Position numbers and translations under genes: made by a program. Below the pieces are notes generated by a model. It was not told where the DNA came from. It did no database searches and saw only the letters and a list, made by a program, of their open reading frames with translations. Source: a virus. Taken from it: 56,018 bases of DNA. Positions 13,538-48,950 of this stretch are shown here, in pieces (position 1 is the stretch's first letter; every line of letters starts with the position of its first letter). The stretch lies in IMG/VR virus record IMGVR_UViG_3300049445_000092, positions 1-56,018 of that record. One strand, written 5' to 3'.

Positions 13538-13885
13538 GCGCAGTCGCTGGGCGTAGTCCACGCCGTCACGTTCGACCAGCCCATCGACCTCGGCATCCCG
13601 AATGATCCGGCCCAGCCGTTGCGTGAGTGATCGGCCCCGGCTGCCAGAGGTGTTGCCGGGATGGATGGCGAACGTGCGGGCGCCGCCCTTGCGGTGCGGA
13701 TGGGCGGAGCGACCCTTGATGAGGATCACCGACGATCGGATCTGCCGCTTCGTATCGGCGCCCGCTTGCTCCGCCGCCGCGGTGAGCACCCGCATCACGT
13801 CCTGGCGTCGATGCCATTCGCCGTCCTTGAGCGCTTCCAGCAGAACGCTCCGGGGATCGAACCCCCAGTCGGGGTCAGCGCTCAT
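13520..13885 (-). CDS. Winged-helix-type hypothetical protein
   Basis: A 121-residue protein with a helical region (SVLLEALKDGEWHRRQDVMR), a GARTFAIHPG strand, and a second helix-wing (LTQRLGRIIRDAEVDGLVER), like a tandem winged-helix DNA-binding protein. It starts at ATG in a TGATG overlap behind the loader-like gene, last gene of the replication transcript. A replication or transcription accessory role is plausible. Confidence 0.6.
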   Translation of the reverse strand: MSADPDWGFDPRSVLLEALKDGEWHRRQDVMRVLTAAAEQAGADTKRQIRSSVILIKGRSAHPHRKGGARTFAIHPGNTSGSRGRSLTQRLGRIIRDAEVDGLVERDGVDYAQRLRLTGGS

Positions 13886-14538
13886 CAGAACTCGACGCAG
13901 TCGTTGCAGATCGTGAGTGGCGACGCTTCGATCATCGTGCGCCCGCACTCAGGACACCGCTTACGCCGTGGCTTGGGTGGATCGTCCAGACGGTTCAGCG
14001 ACTTCGCCAGCGGGCCGGGCTTCGCCATCGTCTTGAGCCACTCAAGCTTCTGCTTCAGCACGTCGCCCTTCAGGATCGGCCCACCCCGCCGCTCGTACTC
14101 CTCGTCGCTCAGAACCGCGCCGCCGACGTTGGGCGACTCGCCCTCGATGTAGACGGCGTCGATGTACTCACAGTCGATGAGCTGGCGTCGGCACTTGGTC
14201 GTTCCGGGGAACGGACGCTCCACGCCGCACGCGGTGCAGCGGTCGGCGGGCAGCAGCATCGAGTACCCGTCGTGCCGGATGATGCGCCAGTAATCGGGGG
14301 TCCTCTGCCTGGTCGTGTCCGGTCGGTCCTTACGGACCTCGGCCATGATGTGGCGGATCGTCGGGCGGCGGGTGTTGGCGTCCTCGCGCACCAGACGGCC
14401 CAGCGCGTTGAGAGCCTCCTTGAAGTCGACCGCCATCAGCTCGTCGTGCCAGACCTCCATCTCGGCTTCGGTGATACGGGGCGTCGGCCAGTAACCGGCG
14501 ACTCGACGCATCACGACATCGGCTTCGCCTGGGTTCAT
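13885..14538 (-). CDS. Helicase loader-like protein with zinc sites
   Basis: A 217-residue protein. The first 70 residues (YWPTPRITEAEMEVWHDELM, ... LGRLVREDANTRRPTIRHIM) resemble the helical domain of phage helicase loaders of the G40P type. Then come CTAC...C and a C-terminal CPEC...CNDC zinc ribbon. Gene order (initiator, then this) matches initiator-loader pairs in other phages, so it probably brings the host DnaB helicase to the origin. No helicase or primase gene is visible, consistent with use of the host's. ATG with GGGAGG; it also overlaps the initiator stop as ATGA. Confidence 0.6.
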   Translation of the reverse strand: MNPGEADVVMRRVAGYWPTPRITEAEMEVWHDELMAVDFKEALNALGRLVREDANTRRPTIRHIMAEVRKDRPDTTRQRTPDYWRIIRHDGYSMLLPADRCTACGVERPFPGTTKCRRQLIDCEYIDAVYIEGESPNVGGAVLSDEEYERRGGPILKGDVLKQKLEWLKTMAKPGPLAKSLNRLDDPPKPRRKRCPECGRTMIEASPLTICNDCVEF

Positions 14539-15443
14539 GGGTGCCTCCCGTTCGTTGGGGTGATCGCGGTGGACGGTAGCCCGATCATCGGGCCAATGCC
14601 GGTTCGCTGGTTGCTCTCGTAGGCGTGGAAGCTGCTGATCTTGTCGGGATCGACGTGCTGGGTCGCCATGTGGATATCGGAATCTGGGCCGAGACTGGGC
14701 CAGTACTTGACCAGATACGACGGCGTGACCGGCTTCCCCCAGCGGCCCTTCAGCCGTTCGGCCCGGATCGGCACCTCATCGGGATCGGCCCCGATGTCCC
14801 GCAGCTGCTTGGTCGCCGCGTTCAGCTGGCCGCGGGCGGACTTGGTCAGCTCATGGATGTTCATTCCGCAGGCTTCAGCGATCGCCTCGAAGAGGCGGTC
14901 CGGCGCGCGTCGAGGAGCGATGACCGTGGTGGTCGCGAAAAGTGCTGGCGCGGTAGTTATTGGTTTCTCTTTACTTCTGGTCTTCCTGGTCTTGTGGTCA
15001 GCTGAGGTGACGCTTTGGGTGACGCTTTGGGTGACGCTTTGCCCAGGTAGAGCGCTCGCGTGCGGATCCGGCAGATCGTCGGCTAAAGCGTCAGCTGAAG
15101 TGACGCTTTGATCCGGCAGAGCGTCAGCTGAAGTGACGCTTTCCACAGATGGGAACAACCTGTGGACAGTCGAGTCCCCCTTCCACCTTCCCTGGTGGAC
15201 AACCTCGATCACCCCTTTGTCTGCCAGGCTCCGCAGTACCTGGCTGACGTATGACCGAGACCCCGGATCGACCCCGATCTCCTCGGCGATCGTCTTCTGG
15301 CTCGGGAAGCAGATCCCCTTGTCGCCAGCGTGTTGCCAGAGGGTGAAGAGGACGGCTCGCTCGGCGTGGGTGATCTTCGGGTCAGCCCAGACCTCTCGCA
15401 GCTGGGCCAGCAAACGAAGGCTGGGATGGGGTCGGCCGCTCAC
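14535..15443 (-). CDS. Replication initiator with winged helix
   Basis: A 302-residue protein. Residues about 20-95 form a winged helix (THAERAVLFTLWQHAGDKG, PSQKTIAEEIGVDPGSRSYV, VLRSLADKGVIEVV) of the type found in phage initiators. Residues about 100-150 are a low-complexity linker repeating QSVTSADA, and the C-terminal part is helical with a basic stretch. The linker DNA is made of iteron repeats, and the protein should bind them, as lambda O does in its own gene. It starts at GTG overlapping a 17-residue leader ORF. The helicase loader-like gene follows. Confidence 0.7.
   Translation of the reverse strand: MSGRPHPSLRLLAQLREVWADPKITHAERAVLFTLWQHAGDKGICFPSQKTIAEEIGVDPGSRSYVSQVLRSLADKGVIEVVHQGRWKGDSTVHRLFPSVESVTSADALPDQSVTSADALADDLPDPHASALPGQSVTQSVTQSVTSADHKTRKTRSKEKPITTAPALFATTTVIAPRRAPDRLFEAIAEACGMNIHELTKSARGQLNAATKQLRDIGADPDEVPIRAERLKGRWGKPVTPSYLVKYWPSLGPDSDIHMATQHVDPDKISSFHAYESNQRTGIGPMIGLPSTAITPTNGRHP
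14952..15166. other. Candidate replication origin inside the initiator gene
   Basis: On the plus strand five copies of GTGACGCTTTG (the last ends TTTC) begin at 15007, 15019, 15031, 15100 and 15133. Two more inverted half-copies (AAAGCGTCA, 15085-15093; one mismatch near 15118) make dyads with the fourth and fifth. On one side is a T-rich stretch (14952-14985) that could unwind. On the other, a 7-bp inverted repeat TCCACAG/CTGTGGA (15142-15148, 15160-15166) makes two DnaA-box-like sites, each 7 of 9 to TTATCCACA. This is the layout of lambda-type origins. Confidence 0.65.
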
Positions 15444-15531: not shown

Positions 15532-15656
15532 GCCGGGGTCGAACTAGACGGGGGCCAGTGTGTTCAGACACTGGCCTTCGTCGCGTTCAGGCGACAGGTC
15601 ACGCAGGTCGGTCCCCAGCACGGTGCTGGCGGGCCGGTTGTCTAAGGAGCCCCGAC
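15532..15656 (-). ncRNA. Structured intergenic RNA upstream of the initiator
   Basis: A 168-base gene-free gap holds a possible multi-branched RNA on the minus strand. A 7-bp closing helix (15650-15656 with 15532-15538) needs a G-U pair that only the minus strand allows. Inside are three hairpins: a long one at about 15609-15636 (7-bp core, extended by 5-6 more pairs past one bulge and one mismatch), a 5-bp one (15580-15595) and a 9-bp one (15553-15576). The last two have the same six-base loop, CUGAAC. It could be a regulatory leader, a stable RNA or protein-binding operators. No tRNA fold fits. Confidence 0.45.
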
Positions 15657-15871: not shown

Positions 15872-16095
15872 CGGCCGGTCCAGTCGCCACCTGCACGGTG
15901 GTACTCACGCTCGCGCAACTCGCGCTCACGCTTACTCCTGTCCAGCTTTCGGTCCCATGCGTGCGCGCAGATCACCAACGCGACCAACACGCCCGCCGTG
16001 ACCGCCATCGCGGTGACGTTACGCCAGTCGATCAGCTCGATCAGTCCGAAGACCAGCGCCAGGATGATGGCCGCGTTCAGCCGGTAGCGGTTCAA
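15868..16095 (-). CDS. Small membrane protein
   Basis: A 75-residue protein starting at TTG in a TTGA overlap with the annealing protein. Two hydrophobic helices ([15 protein letters not shown] and [17 protein letters not shown]) are followed by a very basic/acidic helical tail ([19 protein letters not shown]). It sits oddly in the recombination transcript; a role in attaching replication to the membrane is a guess. Confidence 0.6.
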
Positions 16096-17366
16096 AACGG
16101 ACAGTGGTGGTCAGGGGTGGCCGGGTTGCCGCAGTTCGGGCACTCGCCGTCCATCGCCTTCGCCGTCACTTCGATGAGCCGCATCTGCAACGTGCGCGTC
16201 TGCGCCCGCTCGTTGTACTCCACCTCGAAGGTGTCCAACGCCTTCAGCACTGCTGGGCGGTCCATGCCCATGATGTCGGCGACGATGTCGGGCGGCGGGA
16301 CCGGAACGTCGAGCGTCGCCACCACCACGGGCGGTTCCGCTTCAGGAATCACGTCGATCACGGGACCAGCTTCCTCGGCGGGAGGTTCCGGGGGCGCGAT
16401 GGCTGCGGCTTCGGCGCGCGCCTTGGCTGCCGACAGGGCCTGGGTGTAGTCCCACTCGCGGCCCAGCGCCCGCTGGATCTCGGCGTTGAGCAGGGACTGG
16501 ATCTTGCCCAGCTGCTGGCCGGTCCAGTCGCCCCAGTTCTGCCGTGCGAGCGATGGGTACTTGAGCCGGGCGATCTGCGATGCCAGCGCGGCCTTGCCCT
16601 GCTCGTCCAGGGCGCTGATGCCGACGAAGAGACCCTTCATCCCCTGAATCGACGCCGTCTTCTTGCCCTGAGCGGGGGCGATCCGGTACGTCTGCATGGG
16701 TTCGGTCGCCTCTTCGTGCGTCGGGGGCTCCTCGTAGTCCACGTCTTCGCCCCGGAATTCGCGCACCACCTGCGGCCCGGCTTGGGCCATCTCGTCAGTC
16801 GTGTAGAGCCCGCTCAGCTCCTGGGGGAATGCCCGCCGCAGGGCGAGCGCTTCGGCGACCTTTCCGATCATGAGATCGGGCATCTGCGCCCACATGCGCG
16901 CCACGCCCTTGGATGTCGTCTGGACATAGCTCGACCACCGGGCCGTCGCCACCAGCGGGATCTTGAAGTCCTTACGGAGCGCGCCAACCTTCGCCGCGAA
17001 GGGGTACTCGTTGGGGTCTTCGGGGCGCCACAGATCGGACCAGTCGCCCGTGGCGCCGATCCAGTAGGGGCCGTCCTGACCGGCGTACATCCCCGTTCGC
17101 TCCGCGATGAGGCGCAGCCCGTCGATGGATGTCTGGACGCTCATCACTTGGCGGTTCAGGCGGCTGTCGAAGCGCATGATGGCGTAGACCTGGCGGGCGA
17201 ACGGATCCAGCCCGGTGCGGTTGCAGATCCCCACAAACAGCTCCAGCTCGTCGTCGCTGGCGCCCTTGGCGATGGTCCGCTTCAGCAGGTCGATCTGGTC
17301 ATCAGAGAGCCGGTTCGTCGCCAGCTGGGCGCGGGGCTCGAATGGAATTGGGGCGTTGTCAGTCAT
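16092..17366 (-). CDS. bet: Bet/RecT-type single-strand annealing protein
   Basis: A 424-residue protein of the phage recombination protein Bet family. The family core spans about residues 20-200: [80 protein letters not shown]. Such proteins anneal complementary single strands in recombination. The rest is unlike the family: a helical part, a Pro/Glu-rich linker, and a final CPNCG...HHC zinc-like knuckle. No partner exonuclease of the RecE or Exo type is recognisable nearby. The ATG has GGAGG at good distance; longer readings cross promoter P6. Confidence 0.85.
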
Positions 17367-17381
17367 CTGGCCTCCTGGTAT

Positions 17382-17420
17382 CGGGTGTCCGAAGTCTACC
17401 CCAGACCCCTGACGCGGCAA
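17382..17420 (-). promoter_or_regulatory. Promoter P6 for the recombination/replication transcript
   Basis: On the minus strand: -35 TTGCCG (17415-17420), 16-base spacer with one GGGTC half-site (GACCC on plus, 17404-17408), -10 TAGACT (17393-17398), followed by a shorter leader motif CACCCG (17382-17387). The -35 box lies in the late-operon terminator stem. Confidence 0.5.
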
Positions 17421-17451
17421 GGCCCCCACCGAAGCGGGGACCCCTTGCCGC
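17414..17451 (-). terminator. Late-operon terminator hairpin
   Basis: A 9-bp outer stem (17414-17422 with 17443-17451) and an inner CCCC/GGGG stem, just after the last late gene in the minus direction. No T-tract follows. The stem also overlaps the -35 box of P6. Confidence 0.7.
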
Positions 17452-17504
17452 ATGTATCACCCCGATACATGGAGGTCGCGATGGCAAGCCAAGGGAAGGC
17501 GTGA
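17451..17504 (+). other. Hairpin leader copy with a 7-codon frame on the plus strand
   Basis: CATGTATC-ACCCC-GATACATG (17451-17471) is a perfect 8-bp hairpin holding the CACCCCG leader motif, followed by GGAGG and an ATG that opens a 7-codon frame (MASQGKA). Its TGA overlaps a GTG opening a further 30-codon frame that runs into the opposite late gene. It looks like a leader of the early kind, pointing the other way, perhaps a relic or a tiny antisense transcript. No promoter could be assigned. The rest of this 159-base gap holds P6 and the terminator. Confidence 0.35.
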
Positions 17505-17525: not shown

Positions 17526-19292
17526 CTACAACGGAACGGTGGCCGTCTGCACACCGACCAGGGGGGCCTTGGTCGGACCAGGAGCGGGCTTAGGGACCGT
17601 CACACTTGCGTGAGGTCGCTGGGCCACGGTCACGACGTGGAGCTGGGTGGGCAGGGCGATCGAGATCAGGATCGGCGGCACCCTGGCCGGGCCTTGCCCG
17701 GCGAAGCCCTGCCCGGCGAAGACGATGGCCCCAGTCCCGCTCGCTGCCACGCTGACCTTGGCCGTGGCTGCGCCGCCGAACGTGATCGCCCCGGATCCGC
17801 TGGCCGGGAAGACGATCTGACCCGTCCCAGCGCCGCCGAAGAGGATCGCTCCGGTGCCCGTGGCGGACAGCGTGACCTTGGCCGTGCCGCTCCCGCCCAT
17901 GACAATGGCGCCAGATCCGCTTGAGAGCACCGTCAGCGTCGCTGTGGCGGCTCCAGCGAAGGTGATGGCCCCACTCCCACTGGCGACCGTCAGGCCGCTG
18001 GCAGAGGCGAGCCCAGAGCCTGCGAAGACGATGGCCCCGGTCCCAACCCCCGTGAGGGTGACGACGGCCGTACCGGATCCCCCGAAGACGATGGCCCCCG
18101 TGCCTGTCCCCGTGAGGGTGACCGTCCCGGTGCCCGACCCAGCGAAGACGACGGCGCCTGTCCCGGTGGGGAACACAGTGACCGTCCCCGTGCCCGAGCC
18201 GCCGAAGGTGATCGCCCCGGTGCCGGTGGCCGAGGTCGTAACGACTCCGGTGCCCGTGCCGTTGAAGGTGATGGCACCCGTGCCGGTCGCAGCGAGGAAC
18301 GTCGTGGCCGTCCCTGACCCGGCGAAGGTGATGGCCCCGGTGCCGGTCGCCGTCGTTGTGACGATGGCCGTCGCGGTCCCAGCGCCGAAGAGGATCGCCC
18401 CCGTGCCCGTCGGGGTGACGGTGATCGTCGCCGTCGCGGCGGGACCACCGAAGAGGATCGCCCCCGTGCCCGTCGGGGTGACGGTGACAAGCGAGCCCAC
18501 TGGGGCGAAGGCCACGGCGAGCATGCCGCCGCCCTGCTGGCCGACAGTGGCTGAGATGCTGCTTGACCCAGCTGCTCCGAGGAAGACATCGCCCGTGCTT
18601 TCGGAGCCCGCTGTCTGGCGCAGTGTCGCCGGGGCGGTGTAGCCGAGGATCCCGGCGTTGTCGACGGCCCAAGCGAAGAGCAGGTCGTTGGGGATCGTCG
18701 TCGTCACCGTGTTGGTGAACGGATTGATCGGGGCGGTGATGAGCTGGGACTGCGACCCGTCGGTGGCGCTAAGGAATCCGGCGTACTCGTGGATGCAGAT
18801 GCGAGCGAAGGTGACCGACGACGGCCAGGTGACGGTGATGCTGTTGGCGCCGTTGGCCCCGGCGATCACCCACCAGAGCTGGATGTAGTAGCTGATGTTC
18901 GAGAGGTTGAACGGCCCGGCCGACGGGAACGACTGGCCCGTCGTGAAGCTATCGCCCAGCGTGTCGGTAATGCCGGTCAGGGCAGTCGCGCCGCCGGTCG
19001 GCCAGCCGACAGCGACGATGAGCAGATCACCGGCCTGTACCGACTGCGGGAAGGCGACGGCCTGACTGGTGACGCTACTGCCACCGCTGGCGAAGTTGTT
19101 GCCCTGGATGTAACGGCGGTCGGGAACGAAGATGCCGCCGGGGTAGAGAACAGTCGAGGCGTCCAGCGGCAGATCGACAACGCGGACGGTCCCGAGAAAG
19201 TCACTCGACGTGGGCTGCTTGTCCAGCGCGTTCGACGTATCCAGCCCGATGGGGCTGGTGTTGTCGTACCCGTCAAGCTGGTAGCCGGGCAT
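17526..19292 (-). CDS. Repeat-rich tail protein (fibre or receptor-binding candidate)
   Basis: A 588-residue protein. Residues about 60-260 form a beta-sandwich domain of a type seen in secreted and phage proteins (AGDLLIVAVGWPTGGATALT, then YYIQLWWVIAGANGANSITV). Residues about 265-535 are 13 repeats of 18-20 residues built on GAI-x-F-G/A-G-x-G-T/A, rich in Gly, Thr and Ala, likely a regular beta fibre. The C-terminus is Pro-rich. As the last gene of the late operon it probably projects from the tail tip and touches the host. The start is the ATG at 19292; the previous gene ends 11 bases upstream. Confidence 0.7.
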   Translation of the reverse strand: MPGYQLDGYDNTSPIGLDTSNALDKQPTSSDFLGTVRVVDLPLDASTVLYPGGIFVPDRRYIQGNNFASGGSSVTSQAVAFPQSVQAGDLLIVAVGWPTGGATALTGITDTLGDSFTTGQSFPSAGPFNLSNISYYIQLWWVIAGANGANSITVTWPSSVTFARICIHEYAGFLSATDGSQSQLITAPINPFTNTVTTTIPNDLLFAWAVDNAGILGYTAPATLRQTAGSESTGDVFLGAAGSSSISATVGQQGGGMLAVAFAPVGSLVTVTPTGTGAILFGGPAATATITVTPTGTGAILFGAGTATAIVTTTATGTGAITFAGSGTATTFLAATGTGAITFNGTGTGVVTTSATGTGAITFGGSGTGTVTVFPTGTGAVVFAGSGTGTVTLTGTGTGAIVFGGSGTAVVTLTGVGTGAIVFAGSGLASASGLTVASGSGAITFAGAATATLTVLSSGSGAIVMGGSGTAKVTLSATGTGAILFGGAGTGQIVFPASGSGAITFGGAATAKVSVAASGTGAIVFAGQGFAGQGPARVPPILISIALPTQLHVVTVAQRPHASVTVPKPAPGPTKAPLVGVQTATVPL

Positions 19293-36763: not shown

Positions 36764-37702
36764 TCAGAGCGCGCGCTTGATCCCCTCGGCCAGGGTGATG
36801 AACCGCCAGGCGTCGGCGGGGTAGTAGCTGGAGATAGCGACGCCTCCAGCGCCCCAGCTGGTGACGGGCAGGCTCATGAGGCGGCGCCCCAGGTCCGACC
36901 CGTTGACCCGGAAGGCCACGCCGTCGGGCTTCGAGACCACGCAGGCGATCTGCGGCTCGTAGTCGGCAGCCGCGGCCACCATCCGGGCCAGCTGGATCAT
37001 CGTGGTGGGCACGCCCGTCCCGATGTTGATCGGGCCGTCCAGGTTCTTGCCGACAGCGGCCAGGGCGAGAGTCACGATGTCATCGACGTGGACGAAGTCG
37101 CGAACCTGGCGACCCGATCCCCACACCAAGAGCGGATCCTGGTGAGCCGTGGCCCGGTCCACGATGGCCGGGAACGGATAGTCGGCCGACTGGTCGGTGC
37201 CGTAGCCCGTGAACGGGCGCACAACCGTGACCGGCACGCCGTGCGTCCTGGCGGTCTCTGCGTGCATCTCGCCCAGCACCTTCGTCCATCCATACAGCCC
37301 GTCGGCGTTGCGGGCCGTAGCGGGCCACAGATCGGCCTCTGAGAGCTTCCTGGGCTCGGTCTGGAGGTCAACCGGGTAGGCGGCGGACGAACTCAGGTAC
37401 AGGACCCGCTCCTGGTGGGTAACGATGGCCCACTCGAACATCTGGCGGTCGATGTCCAGGTTCTCGGCCACCAGCATCGGGTTGGCCTCCCGCCGGGCGC
37501 GGTCGGGGATCACGGCGGCGCAGTGGACGACGAGATCGTAACTCGTCTGCATCTCGTGGAAGTAATCCCGGCAGTCGATGGCGTACTCGCCCGCTTCGGG
37601 ATGGCGCACGTCGATCCCGATCACGTCCCAGTCCCGCTCCTTCAGGGCCGCGGTGAAGTGCGACCCGAGGAATCCAGCAGATCCGGTGACGAGGGCCTTC
37701 AC
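36764..37702 (-). CDS. NAD-dependent sugar epimerase/dehydratase
   Basis: A 312-residue enzyme of the extended short-chain dehydrogenase family. The Rossmann motif VTGSAGFLGSHF has Gly7, Gly10 and Gly13; SSS (104-106) and Tyr137-x3-Lys141 form the catalytic set. It should convert one nucleotide sugar into another, acting with the two glycosyltransferase genes next to it. GTG start in a GTGA overlap. Last gene of a three-gene sugar cassette between the prohead protease and the major capsid gene. Confidence 0.85.
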   Translation of the reverse strand: MKALVTGSAGFLGSHFTAALKERDWDVIGIDVRHPEAGEYAIDCRDYFHEMQTSYDLVVHCAAVIPDRARREANPMLVAENLDIDRQMFEWAIVTHQERVLYLSSSAAYPVDLQTEPRKLSEADLWPATARNADGLYGWTKVLGEMHAETARTHGVPVTVVRPFTGYGTDQSADYPFPAIVDRATAHQDPLLVWGSGRQVRDFVHVDDIVTLALAAVGKNLDGPINIGTGVPTTMIQLARMVAAAADYEPQIACVVSKPDGVAFRVNGSDLGRRLMSLPVTSWGAGGVAISSYYPADAWRFITLAEGIKRAL

Positions 37703-38883
37703 GGGACCGGCTGGGCAGGCATTGGGTAGGGGAGCTTGTCGTAGAGCACGACATAGCCCTGGGGCGTCGTGACCCGCACGACGGGGGTGTAGTCGCCGTG
37801 GGCGACGATCTCCGCTTTGGCGTAGCCCCGCACGATGAGCACCCGCGCCCCGGTGTGCGAGTAAATCTCCCAGTCCGGGGAAGTGACGGGATCGAGGATG
37901 GCGACGCACGCCGGGCCGTGGATCACCGGGCCACCCAATGTGCAGGCAACGGGGACCTGGGCCGAGATCGCTCTCAGCGTGCGCGAGTTATGCCCGGAGC
38001 AGGTAAAGGGGATGCCGGGATCGCTGGTGGCCCGGAAGAGGGCGGTGACGGTATGGGCGTCCTGGTCGATGCAGGCCACGGCCTGGCAGCCCCGGTTCGC
38101 CAGCGCCACGTTCATCAGCCAGCGCTTCGCCTCGAAAGCCGATCCCATCTGCGACTCGAAGGGCTCGGCGGTCTCGGACTCCTCATCGGGATAGAGCCGC
38201 ATGTCATGACCGCGCTCTTCGATGGCCGGGATGGCGTCGGGGTAGTGCTGGCCGATGCAGTCCTTGCGGACCAGGGTCTGGTAGCCCAAGTGCTCGGCGT
38301 CGTATTGCAGGCAGGGATCGTCGCTCATGCCCAGCTCGGTGTCGTAGCGCCAGTGCAGCCGCTTCAGGAGATCCCGGTTGAGCATCACGAAGGCGGCGGT
38401 CGCCATGTGGGACTGGACGGGGAAGTCGAAGGCCAGCTTGGACGCCGGGTGGTGGGTGACCCACGGGCCGCTCAGGCAGTAGGTGGTGACCTCGCCGCCG
38501 ACGATGGGCCAGTCCACCTCCAGCAGCTTCACGATGGCGTCACCCGGTGGCTCGCAGTCCGCCGCCATGAAGAGCATGTGGGTGGCCCCGCTGTCGACGG
38601 CGTAGTCGGAGCAGAGGTTCTGGCCCATGGTGATGCGGCGCAGGCGGTTCGAGGTCTTGATCTCGGTGACCCCATCATCGAAGCGAAACTTCCAGAACTC
38701 GTCCAGTTTCGGAAGGATCGGGTCGAAGATCCCCGGACCGCGGCCGTCGTACTCCAGGGCGGCGAAGTAGCGAACCTCGGTGGGCGTCTGCTGGCGGATC
38801 TCGTCCTGGGTCCGCAGCCAGGCTTCGTAGCTGTCGGGCTGATCCATCACATATGCGGGCAGGGTGCTACAGACGCAGATCAA
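37699..38883 (-). CDS. Glycosyltransferase-like protein (GT-A type)
   Basis: A 394-residue protein. Its N-terminal part (LICVCSTLPAYVMDQPDSYE, then TSNRLRRITMGQNLCSDYAV, THMLFMAADCEPPGDAIVKL) looks like a GT-A nucleotide-sugar fold, with ADC-E near the usual DxD position. The C-terminal part (from about 265) is beta-rich and may bind the target. TTG in a TTGA overlap is chosen; an ATG twelve codons in (MDQPDSYEAW) is the other option. Likely adds sugar to virion or cell-wall glycans. Confidence 0.7.
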   Translation of the reverse strand: MICVCSTLPAYVMDQPDSYEAWLRTQDEIRQQTPTEVRYFAALEYDGRGPGIFDPILPKLDEFWKFRFDDGVTEIKTSNRLRRITMGQNLCSDYAVDSGATHMLFMAADCEPPGDAIVKLLEVDWPIVGGEVTTYCLSGPWVTHHPASKLAFDFPVQSHMATAAFVMLNRDLLKRLHWRYDTELGMSDDPCLQYDAEHLGYQTLVRKDCIGQHYPDAIPAIEERGHDMRLYPDEESETAEPFESQMGSAFEAKRWLMNVALANRGCQAVACIDQDAHTVTALFRATSDPGIPFTCSGHNSRTLRAISAQVPVACTLGGPVIHGPACVAILDPVTSPDWEIYSHTGARVLIVRGYAKAEIVAHGDYTPVVRVTTPQGYVVLYDKLPYPMPAQPVP

Positions 38884-39953
38884 GACCGCGCTCCCTTCAG
38901 CCAGGCGTTCAGCCAGCGCTCGGCGTGCTGCTCGTAAGTCAGAGATTCCATGATGGCACGGCCCTGCTCGGACATCTCGTTCCGCCGTGCTTCGTCGCTC
39001 ATCAGACCGTCCAGCTCCTTCAGCCAGCGCGCCGGGTCCTTCGCCAGGCGCCCGATCCCCATGGCGTGCAGCCGCTTGTTGTCGGGGATCGGGGACATCA
39101 CCACCGGGATCCCGAGTGATGCGAATTCCATCGCCTTCAGGCAGGACTTGGACTCGTTGAACTCGTTGAGCTGGAGTGGGACGATGCCCAGCGCGAACCG
39201 GGCCATCTTGTAGGCGTACTGGACGAACGGGATCCAGCCCCCCGTGGTCGACGGCGCGGTGGGCAGCTTCAGTGCTTCCTTCACGCCCTGGCCGTCGCCG
39301 ATCACGCTGAAGCGCCAGTCCGGGTGGCGTTCGAGCGCCCACGACACCGCGCCGCCCGTAGCCTGGAGGTCTTCGGGGTGGGTGCGCAGCGTGCCCGTCC
39401 AGCCCATCGTGGTCGGCTCTCGGCGGCTGGCGATCTTGAGGTAGTGCTCAGGCACCAGATTCGGCAGCAGAACGCCGTGGCCGAAGCCGTAGGCGTCGTA
39501 GAGGGCGGGCGTGCTGGTGGTCACCAGATCGGCCCGCTTGCACGCCTCGGTGATCCACCGGTAGTTGTTGACCCCGCTCTTGCGGTAGTAGTCGTGGGCC
39601 ACGTTCTTCATCTGGATGCGGTCGAAGCGGTCGTCCACGTCGACCACCGTGCGGATCCCCTGGCGCTGATAAAAGGGGATGACCTGGGCGATCATCTTCT
39701 GGGACGGGCGCTGGAAGACCACGACATCGGTCTCCAGGGCCGTCGAGAGCAGCCCCAGCAGGCGGACGTAGTCGGGGGCGAACGGCCGCTGTTCGGTCGG
39801 CTCCCATCTCTGGGACCAGAAACACTTCGGGCCGTCGTTGTCGATGACGACATCGGCGCCCTGATCGATCAGGCAGCCGCCCGGAATCCGCAGCCGGTAC
39901 TGACTGACGCCATCGTTGTCACCGCCCGCCGGGAAGAGGGTGACTCGGGCCAT
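38880..39953 (-). CDS. Glycosyltransferase (GT-B, family 1/4-like)
   Basis: A 357-residue protein with a GT-B-like layout: VTLFPAGGDNDGVSQYRLRI, then TVVDVDDRFDRIQMKN, a MGWTGTLRTHPEDLQATGG strand, a middle IPFVQYAYKMARFALGIVPL, and the C-terminal NESKSCLKAMEFASLGIPVV, where the E of the family's E-x7-E sits. It uses a nucleotide sugar and a still unknown acceptor. It follows the protease gene after 9 bases. Confidence 0.8.
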   Translation of the reverse strand: MARVTLFPAGGDNDGVSQYRLRIPGGCLIDQGADVVIDNDGPKCFWSQRWEPTEQRPFAPDYVRLLGLLSTALETDVVVFQRPSQKMIAQVIPFYQRQGIRTVVDVDDRFDRIQMKNVAHDYYRKSGVNNYRWITEACKRADLVTTSTPALYDAYGFGHGVLLPNLVPEHYLKIASRREPTTMGWTGTLRTHPEDLQATGGAVSWALERHPDWRFSVIGDGQGVKEALKLPTAPSTTGGWIPFVQYAYKMARFALGIVPLQLNEFNESKSCLKAMEFASLGIPVVMSPIPDNKRLHAMGIGRLAKDPARWLKELDGLMSDEARRNEMSEQGRAIMESLTYEQHAERWLNAWLKGARS

Positions 39954-41259: not shown

Positions 41260-41427
41260 TCAGTCGCCTTTGGCTGATACCGGCGGCTCCATCCCGTGGG
41301 GTGGCAGCTCAGAGCCGGGATCGAAGTCGTCGGGGAACCACCAGGGCAGCCCGTTGGGCTTCACACCCCGGTCGCTCGGCGCAGGCATCCCCTCTTCGTC
41401 ATTCGGCTCATCGGGCGGATCGGGCAT
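41260..41427 (-). CDS. Small acidic/Pro-rich hypothetical protein
   Basis: A 55-residue, Pro- and Asp-rich protein (PDPPDEPNDEEGMPAPSD). The ATG has a strong AGGAGG at 7 bases and overlaps the end of the giant gene by 20 bases. Probably disordered. Function unknown. Confidence 0.55.
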   Translation of the reverse strand: MPDPPDEPNDEEGMPAPSDRGVKPNGLPWWFPDDFDPGSELPPHGMEPPVSAKGD

Positions 41428-44400
41428 AGAAGCCTCCTGCATCCTGCTTGACGTAGACGTGGGTCATCCCGCCCACCTTCTCGATCTTCTGGATCACGAA
41501 CCGGCCTCCGGTGACGGTCTCGATCTCATGGGGAGAATTGCTGAAGTTCCCGATGTCCAGCGTAACGGTGCCCGATGGGGCGTGGAATACGGTATCGCCA
41601 CCCCAGCCGAGATCGGGGTTGGTCGTCCAGCTGTCGACCGGCATGTCGATGGTGTCGCCCGGTCCCTTCGGGGTGCCGTCAGGCCGGAAGAACATGTGCT
41701 GGTACCAGTCCTGGCCTGGCTTGCTCTGGATGAAACGGTGGACAGAACTCTTGTTCGGAATCGCCTTGGTCGATACGGCGTTGATGAACGCCCGTGCCTG
41801 CACGGCGCCGCTGCTCATGTTCGTGCCCTTCGACTGTTGCCGCCAGATCCGGCTCAGCTCGTTGACGAAGTCGTTACTGGACTTGTGGCGGTAGTAGGTC
41901 GTGAACTGCTTGATCCCGGCCAGCTCTTCGGCGTTGAACTTGTGCTTGACCTGGAGCGCGTTGGTGTTGGCGACGAACCCCGCGGCGCCCGGCTTGATCC
42001 CGGTGGTCGGCGTGTGCTTCTCCAGCGAACTCGGGCTGACCTTGACCGTGGAAATGATGCTCTTGGAACTGGACTTGGCGAAGTTGTTCTGGTCGTTGAA
42101 GTCCACCGCCGCGCGCTTGGCGCCCTGCGCCAGACCAGCGTGAGCGGCATTCCCCATGATGTCGGTGGTCTCCAGCGTCTGCGCCTTGGAGATATGGGCT
42201 TCGGCCATCGCCTGCACGTCGGGCGCTGATGCCTGATTCGTGAGCATCAGATGCATGGCCTCGTCGTAGCCCTGGCCGATGTGCTCGTTATACGCCTGCT
42301 TGGACTCCTCGGTCGCCCCGGCTGGCGTCTTGCCGTGCGGGTTCGATTCGATGCCGCCGATTACCTTGACCGTCCCGGCGTCCCCGAGGTGCGGGATCGA
42401 CTCGTTGTACTTGCCGTTGGCGAACTCGGTGAGGAACGCCGCCTTGGTCTGCATGAACGCCTGGTCGGCGGCGCTCAGGTTCTGGACCTTCGCCTGGTCC
42501 TCGTATGCCTGCTCGAACCCGTTCTTGAGACCCAGCTCATGAGATTCCCCGGTCGTGTCGACCGGCGACGCCATGTACGCCTCATGCTGGGTGCTGATCT
42601 TCGTCGCCAGCTCGTCCAAGGTCATCTTCGCCCCGGTGGCCTTGCCGTTCTGGTAGGCCGTGATGTAGGCGGTCTGGTCGTGGCTCGGCAACTCGAAGGC
42701 CGGATCCTGCTTCAGCGCTTCCCAGCCCTTCGGCAGGTTCTTGTCGATCTTGACCTCGGCGTAGGTCGGCTGGGACTTGGACGCCTGCGGATCCCACGCC
42801 CCCGCCACGGGCTTCACAATGCCCGGTAGGCCCTGGACGTAGGGATCGGAGGATGTCACCCCGCTGTAGTCGTAGGCGGGCACCATGGGGATCGGGACAC
42901 CCACTGCTTCGGCCGCCGCGACGGTCTCGGGCTTGGGCGTCACCATCTTCGGCTCAGTGGGGAGCACCTTTGCCGCCGCTGCGTACCCGTGGGCCGTGCC
43001 GTAATACTGCGCCTTCATGGCCGGGGTCTCAGCCGTCTTCGCCTTCTTGTAGCCCTGGTTCGACGCCGCCGCCTTGATGTTCTGCTTCGTCTTGCCCGCC
43101 GCGTGCATCTCCTGGCCCTGCTTGAACGCCGCTTCGTGGGCAATGAGGTAGGCGCCGCTGTTCTCAGCGAACTCCGCGGGCACCTTGGGCGCTTCGTAGT
43201 GGAACGTGGGCGTTGACGGGATCGGCGTCATAGTGACGACGTTGGACGCGGACGGTGTCACTCCCAGCTGCTTCTGCATGGTCTGGACGCCCTCGGCCCA
43301 GCCGTGGCTCTTTCCGAGAGCGAACGCCGCGGCGTAGGGCTTGACCTCGGTCGCGGCGTGTTCCTCGAACTGATGGTGGTGATGTTCGACCAGATCCTGC
43401 AAGTCGGCCAGGGTCGCCGCGTCGGCTGTCAACGAGGACACGGTCTCCAGGGCCTGCGCTTTGCCCTTGTCGTAGTTCTGTTGGATCTCGGTCAGGGAGA
43501 ATCCGGGGCCTTCGGCAGCCGCCTTGAGGTCGGACAGCTCGCGCCCACCCGTCGATGGCCCACTGGGCGTCGCCTTGCCGGATGCTTTGTCGGCGACGAG
43601 GTGCATCTGATCGGCGGTGCCCATCAGCTCCGCCGCCTTGGCGTGATTCCCGGCGGCAAACTCGGACTCGGCCGACTTCATGATCGTGTTGGCGAGGTTG
43701 TGGACGTTCTCGGAGTTGATCTCCATGGTGGGCGGGGCGACGTTGGACTTGCCCTGCGCGTAGTCCTCGGGGAACTGGTTTGGCAGTTCGACCATCGACG
43801 GGCTCGTAAAGCTGGAAGAACCGCTCGGCGCTGGTCCCATCCCTTCGGCCACCTTCTTGAACAGCGCCGTGTTCGCCGCGTCGGCTGATCCCATGGAGAA
43901 CGCCGCGCCCTGGTAGTCGCCGTCCTCGTAGTGGCCTTGGGCGGTCTCCAGGGATGCTTCCTTGGCGTTCGCCAGCTGCTGCTGGGTCTCGGTCCCGTCG
44001 ATGATGCTGTTGATGTTGTACTGACCGTGCTTGAACTGGTCCTGGTAGGCCGGGTGCGTCGACAGGATCTGCTTGGCCTCGGCGTTGAACGCTCCGGGCA
44101 TGGCGGGCTCGCCCGACAGCGCCGCGGGAGCGCCCTTCTTCTGTGCCGCCGCCGCCTTGTACCCCTCGGACTTGCCCAATGACCGCATAGCCATCCCCCA
44201 GTCGCCCTTCTGGTGGGCGCCCTGGGCTGTCTTGTACCACTGCTGACCGACTGATTCGGCCTCCTGCGAGCTGATCGTCGCCGCGTCCGCTTGGGCCGCA
44301 TCGAATCCCCCGGCGAATACGGCGCTCTGGCCGGGGTAGTGCTCGCCCATGTTCTGAACGGTCAGCTCGGACTTCGGCCCGGACGGCGCTGACACCGAGA

Positions 44401-47400
44401 CTTGCGCCGCTTCGTCGGCCTTCTGGAGGGCCATGAGATCGGCGACCTCGTGCAGCGCGGCGGCGTGGCCGTGCGCCTGCGCGGCCTGCTTGAACGACGA
44501 CTCAGTACCGAGTGCCGCGTGCTGCTCGGCTTTCGCGGTCAGATCGTCGGCGACCATGTGCGTCCCTTCGGCGGTGTATGTGGCATTGACCATGCTCTCT
44601 GCCGCTAGTGATGGGTGGTCGATCTGAGCGACGTTGTGGTAGCCCGCCAGGTAGTCCTCGGGATACGCCTTGGCGAGGTACTCAGGTCCGGGCGGGCGAC
44701 CGGGCATGGCGGGCGCTTCATGGGACGCCTTCTGCGCCGCCGCTTCGTCGGCCTGCTTCACTTCGACCTTCTGGGCCAGCTTGTGCAGAGCGTCGGCCTC
44801 ACCGATCTTCACCGCCGCGTGAGCGTGCTGACCCGCCACGAATGCGTTGTGTGCGTTCTGCTCGGCATTCGTCGCCTGTTCGTGGATGAACTGAGGGGTG
44901 ATCGCTGATCCTGGCAGCAGCTCGGTGTTCACCCCACCGAAACCCGTGGCGTACTCCTCGGGGAAGTGCTCCTTGATGTTGGTCATGGTGACCTCGGCCG
45001 CGGGCGGCGACACGCTGACCTTCTGGGCCTCACCGGAGGGGACGCCCGTCTTCCCGATCTCGTTGGCGACGGTGTAGTGCGCCTTCGCCTGACCGAAAAG
45101 CTTGGCGTGCTCGGCCAGATCACCGGATTCCTTGGCCTTCTTGGCGTTGGCGTAGAGCTTGGATCCGCGCGCCTTCACCTTCACCTTGATCTGGCCCGGT
45201 GTCAGACCGTTGGCGGCGTGGACCTCAGCCATCTTCTTCGCCGCGACCTGGCCCTCCAGGTGGCCCACTTTGAACTTCGTGTAGAGCCCACCACCTGCCT
45301 TGATGTAGGCCGACAGATCGGCGAGACCGACGGCGGCCGTACTGGGAACGGCGGCGGCGGGCGCAGGGACAGCCACAGTGGCCTCTGCGACGACGTGCGG
45401 GGGTTGCTTGGTCTCGACCTTCGGCGCTTCGACCTTGGGCGGGGTCGGCTCGCCCTTCAGCTTCGCCACGATGGCCGGGATCTGGGCCTGGCGCTCCTTC
45501 AGCACCGTCAGCCACGGGGCCGACACGCTCTCGGGGATGCCCGCTGCCTTCCAGCGCTCGGCCACCTTGTTGAGATCGAGCTTCGCCGCGGTCTCCAGGG
45601 ACGCTGCCGCTGTCGGGTCGTTCATGGAGCCGTAGAACTTCTGGCCCTGCCCGCCGTTGCGGATGGACTCGACATCGGTCCACGCCTTGCCCGGAGCGAA
45701 GGACGGCTTGGCGACGCCCGATCCTCGGAACGCCATCGCCCCGCCCTGGTCGATGCGGATGACCTTGCTGCCGTCGTCGGAGAGGGTGAGGTTCGATCCG
45801 CTGGGCCAGTCCCCGGCGAAGTCGTAGTTGCTCGTCAGGGCGTCGATCCCGAATCCCTCACGCATGATCTGCTTGTGCATGTTGCTGTCGGGATTGACCG
45901 GGTTGATGTTGCCGACGGCGTGGCTGGCGACACCGTGGATGCCGCCTGCGTTGTCAGCCTTGACGATGGTGACGTTGGGCGCCAGCGTGTGCGGCAGCAG
46001 TCCGCTGTCCGACGCCTCGTGATACACCTCGTTCGCCGCCACTTCGCTGTAGGCGTGCTCGGCTGACTTGGATTCCTTGATGAGGTAGCGGTCGCCGCTG
46101 CCCTTGTGGGTGTACCAGTTGCCGGGGTTCGATCCCGGCGACTTGGCGCCCTTCTCGTACTCGGCGCTGCTGGCCGACGGGAGATGGGTCGGCGTGTGTT
46201 CGGTGACCGGTGTGACCTCATGGGCCTTGGTGCCGTAGTTCCCGGCCTTGCTGGCGAACTCATGGAGCTTCGCCTGTTCGGCCGCGTGGGTAGTCGCCTC
46301 GGCTTCCTTCTTGGCGTCGGCGTGGATGCTGGCCCCGTGCGCCTGGGCGGCGTACTGCATGGCCTTGTGCAGGTCCCCCGCCTTCTGGGCCTCCTGCGCT
46401 AGCTCGGCGAAATGGTGGGCCGCTTCGGCTGCCTGGTGATGGGTGGCGTCAGCCTTCTCCAGGTCTTTCTCGGCCTTGTCCGCTAGTTCCTGGTACGCCT
46501 TCGGCGAGATCGGGATCCATCCGTGTTTGAAGTCAAACCGCAGCTGGAGCATGTCCTCCAACCAGGCCCGCTTGCCCTGCTGCTTCTTCTTTTTGGCGAG
46601 CAGTTGCTCCCAGTTGAGGTTGGCGTCGGGGTTCGTGTCGGCCTTGTGCGATCCGGTCCACGTCGGCTTCGGCTTCGTCGGCTTGGATGTCGTGGCCTTC
46701 GGTGGCTTGGGCGGCTTCGGATGGCCCTGCTCGGGGCTCGGCGTGGCGACGGGGTTGTGGACGACAGGCTTGACTTCGGGCGCGCTCGGGAAGTTGTGCG
46801 GCTGCGGTGGGGTCGGCGTGCCGCCCTTGTTCAGCCGGTCCATCTCGGCCACGGCGGCGTCGAGCACGTTCAGATCCCGCTGCACGCCGCCGGGGATCGT
46901 CCCCTGCTGGATCCGGTCGCGCGCCTCCTTCGGCGTGAACCACCCGACGGCGTTGGTCTCGCCGTTGGCGATCACCTTGGTGTAGTCGGGCTTCGCCCCG
47001 GCGTCCTGGCTCAGGTAGAAGTAGTTCGCACTCGATGACCCGTAGCCCGGATGGTGCCCGCCTTCGTGGGCGACGCCCTTCTTGTCTGTCCACGGTGCCT
47101 CGTCGTAGGACCCGTCGGCGTGGTGCTGGTTGCCGTGCTTGTCGACGTAAGGCTCTTGGATGTGCGGCGTCTTGAAGGCGCCCTTGAGGTGGCTGACGAT
47201 GCGGGGAACGCGCCCGGTCTCCTCCAGGGCCTCGCGCTGGGCCACGGCGACGTGGGACTCACCGGGATCGGGTCCGCCCTTGGCGAAGGTCCAGTGGTAG
47301 CCGAGGTAGTGGTTCTTCGGCTCGCGCAACAGAACGTGGGTGCCCTCCTTGTTGAAGATCACCGCTCCGTAGCGGGGGTTGTGGCCGATGGGCCATTCCC

Positions 47401-48949
47401 CTTCGGCGTGGAGATCCCGCCCGGCGTAGTGCTTGGAGCGGTCGGGATGGAGTCGCCCCTTCTTCTGGTACGGATGGAGCAGATTCCACTTGGCCCAATC
47501 GCGTTTCTCGAGAAACTCGGCCCGCTGGTTGGCGTGATGCTGGTAGGCGGCGTCGGCGATCTGGTTGAACTCGTCAGGCGTGAGCATCCCGGTGTTGCGG
47601 GCCTGCTCCACTTCGCCCCAGGTGCCGGGCTGGTAGTGCTCCACGGCTTCGATGTCGTTGTAGTCGGCGTCGGCCTGATCGAAGTAGTCGGGCTTGTCGT
47701 AGGTCCGGCTGCCCAGCGACTGGGCCAGCTCGTCCAGGCTGGTCTTGCCCGCCCGGTAGGCGTTGATCTGGTCGGTGATGTCGCTCTGCGGTGGAGTGCC
47801 GTCGTCGGCTCGGTGGGCCAGCTTCCTCGCGCTCCCGGTCTCGTTGATGAGCTTCCCGGCGTAGTTCTCGTTGTCGATGGTCAGCGTCTGGTCGAACCGG
47901 GGCTTCAACTCCTCGAACGCCGCCCGGTTCTTGGTCCGGTACTGCCCCGTCGGATCATTGCCCCCTGTGATGAGCCCTGAGGGCACGAACCGCCCGCCCA
48001 GCCCCTCTCCCTTCGCCAGGCGATTCTGACCGCCCCGGTGGCGCTGGGCCGCGTTCTTGGCGCTCTGGGCCGTCGAGACATCCACGAACGCCCCGGCGAC
48101 GTGGTAGCCGCCCATCTGGGTCGCCGCGTGCAGCGGGTTGATCCGCTTGTCCCCCGACTTCACGCTGTTGAGGGTCACGTCCCAGATGACGTTCTTGCCT
48201 TGGGCCTGGGCGCGCTGGGCCAGATCCTCGGCCAGCTTCGACGCCTCTTCGTGGACGAACGGATTCGCCTCTAAGGGGCTGAGGGCGTCGATCTTCGGGA
48301 TCATCCCCCGCTTCGCCATCTCGCCCTTGATGTCGTCGGGGTTGAGGATGAGGAAGTTCGACGGTTCGCCGACGCCGTGGCCCTTCTCGTCATAGCTGGC
48401 GTACTTGATGCCCAGCTTGTGGGCGACGCTGCCCCGGTGCTTGGCGTTCGTCCGCAGGATCGTGCTCTTCCCGGCGCCGCCGATTCCACCCATGACGATG
48501 GCCCGGCGGTCGTTCGGGACGTTCTTGGCCCGATCCTCCAGCTGCTTCAGGATCTCCTCTTGCTGGGCGCGCCGCGACGGGGTGTAGAGCCCCTCGACGC
48601 CGTTCACCTTGTCTTCGGAGATGTGGGTGCTGAACGGGGAGCGCAGGAGATCCTCGGTGCCGTGGCGGGTCAGCTCGAAGTCGACGTGCTTGCGGTGCTG
48701 GGCGTACTCGGCGTCGGTCATGTCCCGCTTGGCCGTGAAGACCTTGCCGTGGTCCATGGCGTCGGCCTTGGCGTGGAACCCGGCGATCAGATCCTTGTCC
48801 CCGAAGGATCCGGCCTTGTCCCCGAAGCTGGGCCTGGTCGGCTTGCTGACGCTGACGCTGGCGCCTTTGCCCGGCCGACGGCCCTTCTTCTGATAGGGGT
48901 GCTCCAGATTCCACTTGGCCCAGTCCCTGGACGACAGGGTGACCGTCAC
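41408..48949 (-). CDS. Giant polyvalent protein: zeta-like kinase, Nudix, kinase-like, repeats, ART-like
   Basis: 2513 residues, between portal and protease genes. Domains in order: P-loop kinase like zeta toxins (about 95-370, GGIGGAGKST at 154-163, Walker-B-like VIWDVTL near 255); full Nudix box (GGPDPGE...REALEETG, about 558-580); Pro/Lys linker; a HipA/PI-kinase-like fold (about 940-1170, YLIKES, SNYDFAGDWP, IRIDQGG); five 95-110-residue helical units (1323-1790) with FPE-D/E-Y; further helical parts; an ADP-ribosyltransferase-like end (R2405, SWTT at 2440-2443, E2475/E2477). RDWAKWNL-HPYQKKGR occurs twice, before the first and second domains. GTG start after GGGGAG, one base past the portal stop. 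Probably packaged and injected to modify host targets. Confidence 0.8.
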   Translation of the reverse strand: MTVTLSSRDWAKWNLEHPYQKKGRRPGKGASVSVSKPTRPSFGDKAGSFGDKDLIAGFHAKADAMDHGKVFTAKRDMTDAEYAQHRKHVDFELTRHGTEDLLRSPFSTHISEDKVNGVEGLYTPSRRAQQEEILKQLEDRAKNVPNDRRAIVMGGIGGAGKSTILRTNAKHRGSVAHKLGIKYASYDEKGHGVGEPSNFLILNPDDIKGEMAKRGMIPKIDALSPLEANPFVHEEASKLAEDLAQRAQAQGKNVIWDVTLNSVKSGDKRINPLHAATQMGGYHVAGAFVDVSTAQSAKNAAQRHRGGQNRLAKGEGLGGRFVPSGLITGGNDPTGQYRTKNRAAFEELKPRFDQTLTIDNENYAGKLINETGSARKLAHRADDGTPPQSDITDQINAYRAGKTSLDELAQSLGSRTYDKPDYFDQADADYNDIEAVEHYQPGTWGEVEQARNTGMLTPDEFNQIADAAYQHHANQRAEFLEKRDWAKWNLLHPYQKKGRLHPDRSKHYAGRDLHAEGEWPIGHNPRYGAVIFNKEGTHVLLREPKNHYLGYHWTFAKGGPDPGESHVAVAQREALEETGRVPRIVSHLKGAFKTPHIQEPYVDKHGNQHHADGSYDEAPWTDKKGVAHEGGHHPGYGSSSANYFYLSQDAGAKPDYTKVIANGETNAVGWFTPKEARDRIQQGTIPGGVQRDLNVLDAAVAEMDRLNKGGTPTPPQPHNFPSAPEVKPVVHNPVATPSPEQGHPKPPKPPKATTSKPTKPKPTWTGSHKADTNPDANLNWEQLLAKKKKQQGKRAWLEDMLQLRFDFKHGWIPISPKAYQELADKAEKDLEKADATHHQAAEAAHHFAELAQEAQKAGDLHKAMQYAAQAHGASIHADAKKEAEATTHAAEQAKLHEFASKAGNYGTKAHEVTPVTEHTPTHLPSASSAEYEKGAKSPGSNPGNWYTHKGSGDRYLIKESKSAEHAYSEVAANEVYHEASDSGLLPHTLAPNVTIVKADNAGGIHGVASHAVGNINPVNPDSNMHKQIMREGFGIDALTSNYDFAGDWPSGSNLTLSDDGSKVIRIDQGGAMAFRGSGVAKPSFAPGKAWTDVESIRNGGQGQKFYGSMNDPTAAASLETAAKLDLNKVAERWKAAGIPESVSAPWLTVLKERQAQIPAIVAKLKGEPTPPKVEAPKVETKQPPHVVAEATVAVPAPAAAVPSTAAVGLADLSAYIKAGGGLYTKFKVGHLEGQVAAKKMAEVHAANGLTPGQIKVKVKARGSKLYANAKKAKESGDLAEHAKLFGQAKAHYTVANEIGKTGVPSGEAQKVSVSPPAAEVTMTNIKEHFPEEYATGFGGVNTELLPGSAITPQFIHEQATNAEQNAHNAFVAGQHAHAAVKIGEADALHKLAQKVEVKQADEAAAQKASHEAPAMPGRPPGPEYLAKAYPEDYLAGYHNVAQIDHPSLAAESMVNATYTAEGTHMVADDLTAKAEQHAALGTESSFKQAAQAHGHAAALHEVADLMALQKADEAAQVSVSAPSGPKSELTVQNMGEHYPGQSAVFAGGFDAAQADAATISSQEAESVGQQWYKTAQGAHQKGDWGMAMRSLGKSEGYKAAAAQKKGAPAALSGEPAMPGAFNAEAKQILSTHPAYQDQFKHGQYNINSIIDGTETQQQLANAKEASLETAQGHYEDGDYQGAAFSMGSADAANTALFKKVAEGMGPAPSGSSSFTSPSMVELPNQFPEDYAQGKSNVAPPTMEINSENVHNLANTIMKSAESEFAAGNHAKAAELMGTADQMHLVADKASGKATPSGPSTGGRELSDLKAAAEGPGFSLTEIQQNYDKGKAQALETVSSLTADAATLADLQDLVEHHHHQFEEHAATEVKPYAAAFALGKSHGWAEGVQTMQKQLGVTPSASNVVTMTPIPSTPTFHYEAPKVPAEFAENSGAYLIAHEAAFKQGQEMHAAGKTKQNIKAAASNQGYKKAKTAETPAMKAQYYGTAHGYAAAAKVLPTEPKMVTPKPETVAAAEAVGVPIPMVPAYDYSGVTSSDPYVQGLPGIVKPVAGAWDPQASKSQPTYAEVKIDKNLPKGWEALKQDPAFELPSHDQTAYITAYQNGKATGAKMTLDELATKISTQHEAYMASPVDTTGESHELGLKNGFEQAYEDQAKVQNLSAADQAFMQTKAAFLTEFANGKYNESIPHLGDAGTVKVIGGIESNPHGKTPAGATEESKQAYNEHIGQGYDEAMHLMLTNQASAPDVQAMAEAHISKAQTLETTDIMGNAAHAGLAQGAKRAAVDFNDQNNFAKSSSKSIISTVKVSPSSLEKHTPTTGIKPGAAGFVANTNALQVKHKFNAEELAGIKQFTTYYRHKSSNDFVNELSRIWRQQSKGTNMSSGAVQARAFINAVSTKAIPNKSSVHRFIQSKPGQDWYQHMFFRPDGTPKGPGDTIDMPVDSWTTNPDLGWGGDTVFHAPSGTVTLDIGNFSNSPHEIETVTGGRFVIQKIEKVGGMTHVYVKQDAGGFYARSAR

Positions 48950-48950
48950 G

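Follow-up and report, generated by a model that had tools for sequence, protein, structure and literature searches.

An iteron array inside the replication initiator gene points to a lambda/SPP1-type origin in an unstudied phage lineage

Replication origins embedded in the gene of their own initiator have been described in several phages. In phage lambda, iterons and an AT-rich tract lie in the middle of gene O, and the minimal fragment capable of unwinding consists of two iterons together with this tract (PMC7466680). In Bacillus phage SPP1, gp38 binds repeats within gene 38, and gp39 loads the helicase (PMC6316719). A third precedent is Staphylococcus phage 80alpha, in which deletion of ORF20 cannot be complemented in trans (PMC5499656), and repeats inside the O-like gene of Pseudomonas phage MD8 were noted previously (PMC8508860). 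An earlier note on the DNA analysed here proposed an origin of the lambda type within a phage initiator gene. The window, that is, the whole stretch of 56,018 nucleotides corresponding to the IMG/VR virus record IMGVR_UViG_3300049445_000092, contains the following genes at this locus:

13885–14538, minus strand: gene for a G39P-like helicase loader of 217 aa with a zinc-ribbon-like C-terminus, directly downstream of the initiator gene and overlapping it by 4 bp
14535–15443, minus strand: replication initiator gene, 302 aa, GTG start, with matches to HTH_36 and to replication-initiation families
16092–17453, minus strand: gene for a RecT-family single-strand annealing protein, upstream and in the same direction (Pfam RecT, 1e-25; phrog_2780, 1.7e-62)

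The initiator is composed of an N-terminal winged helix (HTH_36), a disordered linker and a helical C-terminal domain. Its N-terminus matches Pfam HTH_36 with an E-value of 1.7e-10 and its best PHROG match is phrog_270 (replication initiation, 2.8e-12). O-like profiles cover only the N-terminal half and the linker (phrog_391, 4.1e-9, residues 19–164; phrog_678, 2.7e-8, residues 19–224), and the resemblance to the O-like families is confined to the profile level. The structure model, built from the single sequence, had a low mean confidence (50), with a visible N-terminal helical domain, pLDDT values below 50 for linker residues 79–180 and of about 85 for the C-terminal domain (residues 181–251); Foldseek searches with this model returned generic HTH matches only. 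The first 66 residues of the loader, likewise modelled from the single sequence, superposed on SPP1 G39P (1no1) with a Z-score of 8.4 and an rmsd of 2.0 over 64 of 67 residues, the next row scoring 4.7, and at the sequence level there is weak agreement from phrog_2289 (helicase loader, 1.3e-4). Its C-terminal tail, CPECGR...CNDC, resembles a zinc ribbon and lies beyond the crystallised 67-residue G39P fragment. The phage record contains no DnaB helicase gene, and host DnaB is therefore presumably used.

The locus thus shares with lambda a loader gene directly downstream of the initiator gene and, presumably, the use of host DnaB, although the loader has the G39P fold rather than that of lambda P, and the window genome is high-GC. 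With SPP1 oriL it has in common repeats and an AT-rich unwinding element in the initiator gene, followed by the gene of a G39P-fold loader (PMC6316719), whereas SPP1 possesses its own DnaB-type helicase (gp40) and a second origin, oriR. The likeness to 80alpha ORF20, drawn from its published description, consists in an origin within the replisome-organizer gene, with a different iteron word and host.

The repeats lie within the linker-coding part of the initiator gene and are organized as a tandem run and two dyads:

15007–15041, plus strand: three tandem iterons, GTGACGCTTTG, with an exact 12-bp step
15085–15110, plus strand: dyad 1, AAAGCGTCA and TGACGCTTT separated by 7 bp, 9-bp arms, containing the fourth iteron
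15120–15143, plus strand: dyad 2, AGCGTCA and TGACGCT separated by 7 bp, 7-bp arms, containing the fifth iteron (one mismatch)

Direct search located exact copies of GTGACGCTTTG at 15007, 15019, 15031 and 15100, and a fifth site, GTGACGCTTTC, with one mismatch at 15133, giving an array of five copies that spans 15007–15143. The earlier note had listed five iterons, three of them at 12-base spacing, and two inverted dyads; the positions and the spacing are correct, the fifth copy is inexact, and both dyads are present, at 15085 and 15120, with 7-bp spacers. At up to one mismatch, GTGACGCTTTG occurs five times in 56 kb against an expectation of 0.66, a count that was reached in none of 100 shuffles. 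The core TGACGCTTT, searched on both strands of the 56,018-base window, was found five times on the plus strand and once on the minus strand (chance expectation 0.13 per strand), all six occurrences falling inside 15008–15142; it is absent from the rest of the 56 kb, and there is no second iteron cluster in the window. The exact tandem-iteron pattern had no match in IMG/VR. The dyad pattern gave four matches in the same database, all in unrelated genes and attributable to chance.

The iterons encode part of the predicted disordered linker, with the translation QSVT / SVTSADA that had been given previously. All direct copies share a single reading frame in this gene, and the repeats could accordingly be read as a protein feature, namely a recent tandem duplication of a flexible linker in which the DNA itself has no role; such a duplication would also account for the identical codons. 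None of 2,000 synonymous-codon shuffles (protein fixed, codons shuffled within the gene) produced six exact 9-mers in the part coding for the linker; the dyads alone arose in 143 of 2,000, hence they are not rare. Since tandem duplication could mimic the former result, more weight is given to the stability minimum described below and to the occurrence of the word in both orientations: TGACGCTTT is read both ways in the gene, and the residues encoded differ (SVT and ADA), which is at odds with a duplication of protein sequence.

Directly 3' of the iterons on the gene strand lies the least stable DNA of the window:

14953–14992, no strand assigned: candidate unwinding element, A/purine-rich when read on the gene strand; over 40 bp, duplex stability in the window is lowest here

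This stretch corresponds to the T-rich side of the array that had been noticed before. The 60-bp and 100-bp stability minima of all 56,018 bases fall in the same place, also adjoining the iterons. The instability stems from synonymous codon choice, none of 3,000 codon shuffles being equally unstable, and the largest excess of instability over codon shuffles within the initiator gene is located exactly at this stretch, which speaks against a mere duplication of the linker at the protein level. In the lambda O gene, which served as a control, the 40 bp of lowest stability begin 3 bases past iteron 4. Mid-gene iterons that follow the HTH part and are bordered directly 3' by the least stable DNA of the gene are therefore common to the window and to the lambda origin, as well as to those of the Stx phages 933W and P27 (PMC7466680), although the iterons of lambda, four 18-bp near-palindromes, differ from those of the window.

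Instead of forming an origin, the repeats might act as an operator through which the replication genes are autoregulated, or might shape the mRNA, given that the initiator is an HTH protein and that the dyads could make RNA hairpins. The sites, however, are situated about 300–440 nt within the gene with no promoter-like sequence nearby, a search for a sigma-70-type promoter near the iterons finding none, and a direct-repeat array with an unstable flank resembles the lambda and SPP1 origins; of all the explanations considered, we hold this one to be the least probable. Terminators were at chance level, and no Rfam families or tRNA were found. A strong inverted repeat (GGCCAGTGT and ACACTGGCC, 6 nt apart) occupies 15549–15582 in the non-coding DNA that precedes the initiator gene, and represents a possible operator or leader hairpin.

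No close relatives of the initiator or of the loader were found in IMG/VR, GTDB genomes or GenBank phages. Distant initiators were collected from weak tblastn matches, by way of the neighbouring RecT gene and by way of one relative. Among the RecT relatives, L002 and L004 yielded no initiator in a tblastn search, and the initiator of L003 was found on inspection; the mixed alignment of ten sequences was too diverged to serve as a search query. About twelve distantly related phage initiator genes carry repeats in the same place, with differing repeat words and, in most cases, an A-rich stretch behind them. Clear repeats, the word differing from gene to gene, follow the HTH domain in L003, L009, L011, L014, L015 and L018, where they exceed what codon shuffling yields (reached in at most about 1 in 60–100 shuffles), and likewise in L022, L026/L027, L028, L030 and L034; those of L073 were recognized by eye. 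Related HTH genes without iterons also exist (L012 and L017), the signal was weak in L010 and L013, and L016 was too short to judge. Of 14 genes tested, counting that of the window, nine have a higher AT content in the 60 nt 3' of the repeats than codon shuffling produces (8 in 500 or rarer). The gene at the loader position in L009 has in common with the window loader a weak match to phrog_22143. The O-like genes of the Pseudomonas phages MD8 and phi2 encode an HTH initiator of the same profile families and contain in-gene repeats followed by an A-rich stretch, although the phi2 repeat word, ACCCCCGCAG, is unlike that of the window and the MD8 and phi2 loaders are annotated as P-like.

Together with lambda O, these distant relatives indicate that the layout is preserved even as repeat words and linker residues are replaced. 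As evidence against its proposal the earlier note had named relatives that keep the protein linker and lose the iteron DNA; in the distant relatives the reverse was seen, the layout being retained with differing residues. L003 uses two reading frames for its repeat (GDTDVT and VVTLTSP), and a protein-level explanation cannot yield such repeats. With the layout retained over unrelated residues, and in view of the two orientations and the codon-borne instability in the window, a linker duplication without a role for the DNA appears very unlikely.

Beside the array, two sites of the pattern YYNTCCACA are found 22 bp apart:

15139–15147, plus strand: DnaA-box-like site CTTTCCACA, YYNTCCACA pattern, of doubtful role
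15161–15169, minus strand: DnaA-box-like site CTGTCCACA, one base off the actinobacterial box TTGTCCACA, of doubtful role

The box TTGTCCACA is bound with high affinity in Streptomyces coelicolor and Mycobacterium tuberculosis (PMC4285127), and the terminase of the phage is suggestive of an actinobacterial host (see below), so that a lambda-like origin which additionally requires host DnaA at these two sites was considered. Both sites that the earlier note had pointed out do exist, but the significance attached to them finds no support: the window contains five YYNTCCACA sites against 6.7 expected, that is, not above chance, and a one-mismatch site near the iterons occurs in only two of ten relatives. 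One of the sites, moreover, overlaps codons of the conserved wing region. Because of this chance frequency and near absence at the iterons of relatives, the DnaA-box-like sites are given no role, and a requirement for DnaA is judged improbable, if somewhat less so than the two explanations discussed above. Cumulative GC skew is lowest at 14,145 in the raw curve and at 18,218 after detrending (range p 0.003–0.012, block permutation). A turn of the skew near 15 kb had been anticipated; the minimum is indeed nearby, loosely in agreement, but it is not sharp. The skew is consistent with an origin around 15 kb.

The A-rich flank shows some regularities of its own. In the window (14953–14998), as in the iteron 3' flanks of L003, L011, L014, L015, L018, L031 and L034, the flank often contains short AGAACC-like words that recur at 11–12-nt steps and encode unrelated residues; a few 4-mers (AATA, TAGA and AAGT) are commoner in these flanks than under codon shuffling. 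It is conceivable, if rather unlikely, that this A-rich DNA does more than melt and that in many HTH_36-type genes it may act as a single-strand recognition element for the initiator or the loader, kept at the DNA level; the window would then have a weak version of it (AAGACCAGG, 9-nt step).

As for the host and the rest of the genome, the terminase is 48% identical to those of Streptomyces phage TurkishDelight and Actinoplanes phage phiAsp2, and from this similarity the host of the phage is probably an actinobacterium. The closest RecT among GenBank phages (gene 16092–17453) is that of the Microcystis cyanobacterial phage Mae-JY09 (52%), and with the terminase nearest to actinobacterial phages the genome is seen to be mosaic. 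Other features of the window include a protein of 588 aa, encoded next to the tail genes (17526–19292), in which repeats of the type GTGAI(T/V)FGGSG are numerous, a 965-aa fusion of a portal protein with a head-morphogenesis domain (48951–51848), and a 2,519-aa open frame that comes after the portal fusion gene (41408–48967). Between the capsid and the upstream head genes (36764–39953), open reading frames resemble, by eye, a sugar-nucleotide epimerase and glycosyltransferases, which is unusual beside head genes.

In view of the evidence against the protein-repeat, operator and DnaA-dependent explanations, all three are ranked below an in-gene origin, and the region 14952–15166 is very probably the theta replication origin of this phage, situated in its own initiator gene. 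The lambda-like origin put forward by the earlier note is supported by the initiator families, the linker-coded iterons, the codon-carried stability minimum, the G39P-fold loader, the lack of a phage DnaB and the same layout in relatives and in lambda O. For binding, melting, loading and the start site itself we infer a course modelled on lambda (PMC7466680) and SPP1 (PMC6316719). The winged helix of the initiator would bind an array of TGACGCTTT half-sites made up of the tandem run and the two dyads, the bound initiators would assemble into a complex, and the adjoining low-stability 40 bp would melt; the G39P-like protein would then deliver host DnaB helicase to the opened site, where the host replisome would take over.

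The features of in-gene iteron origins, namely repeats in the initiator gene, an adjoining AT-rich stretch, an HTH initiator and a downstream loader gene, are all found in the window, and the region is a well-supported further example of the known lambda/SPP1-type arrangement. A phage helicase is lacking, the loader of the G39P fold carries a zinc-ribbon-like tail, 12-bp tandem iterons are combined with dyads, and there is a single site; taken together, these traits set it apart only in detail. For this unstudied lineage of phages, the probable origin of replication is thereby narrowed to about 200 bp, and the comparison shows a DNA layout that persists as repeat words and linker residues change. 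Linker-coding repeats combined with a codon-carried stability minimum provide a simple, experiment-free recipe for locating origins in many phage initiator genes.
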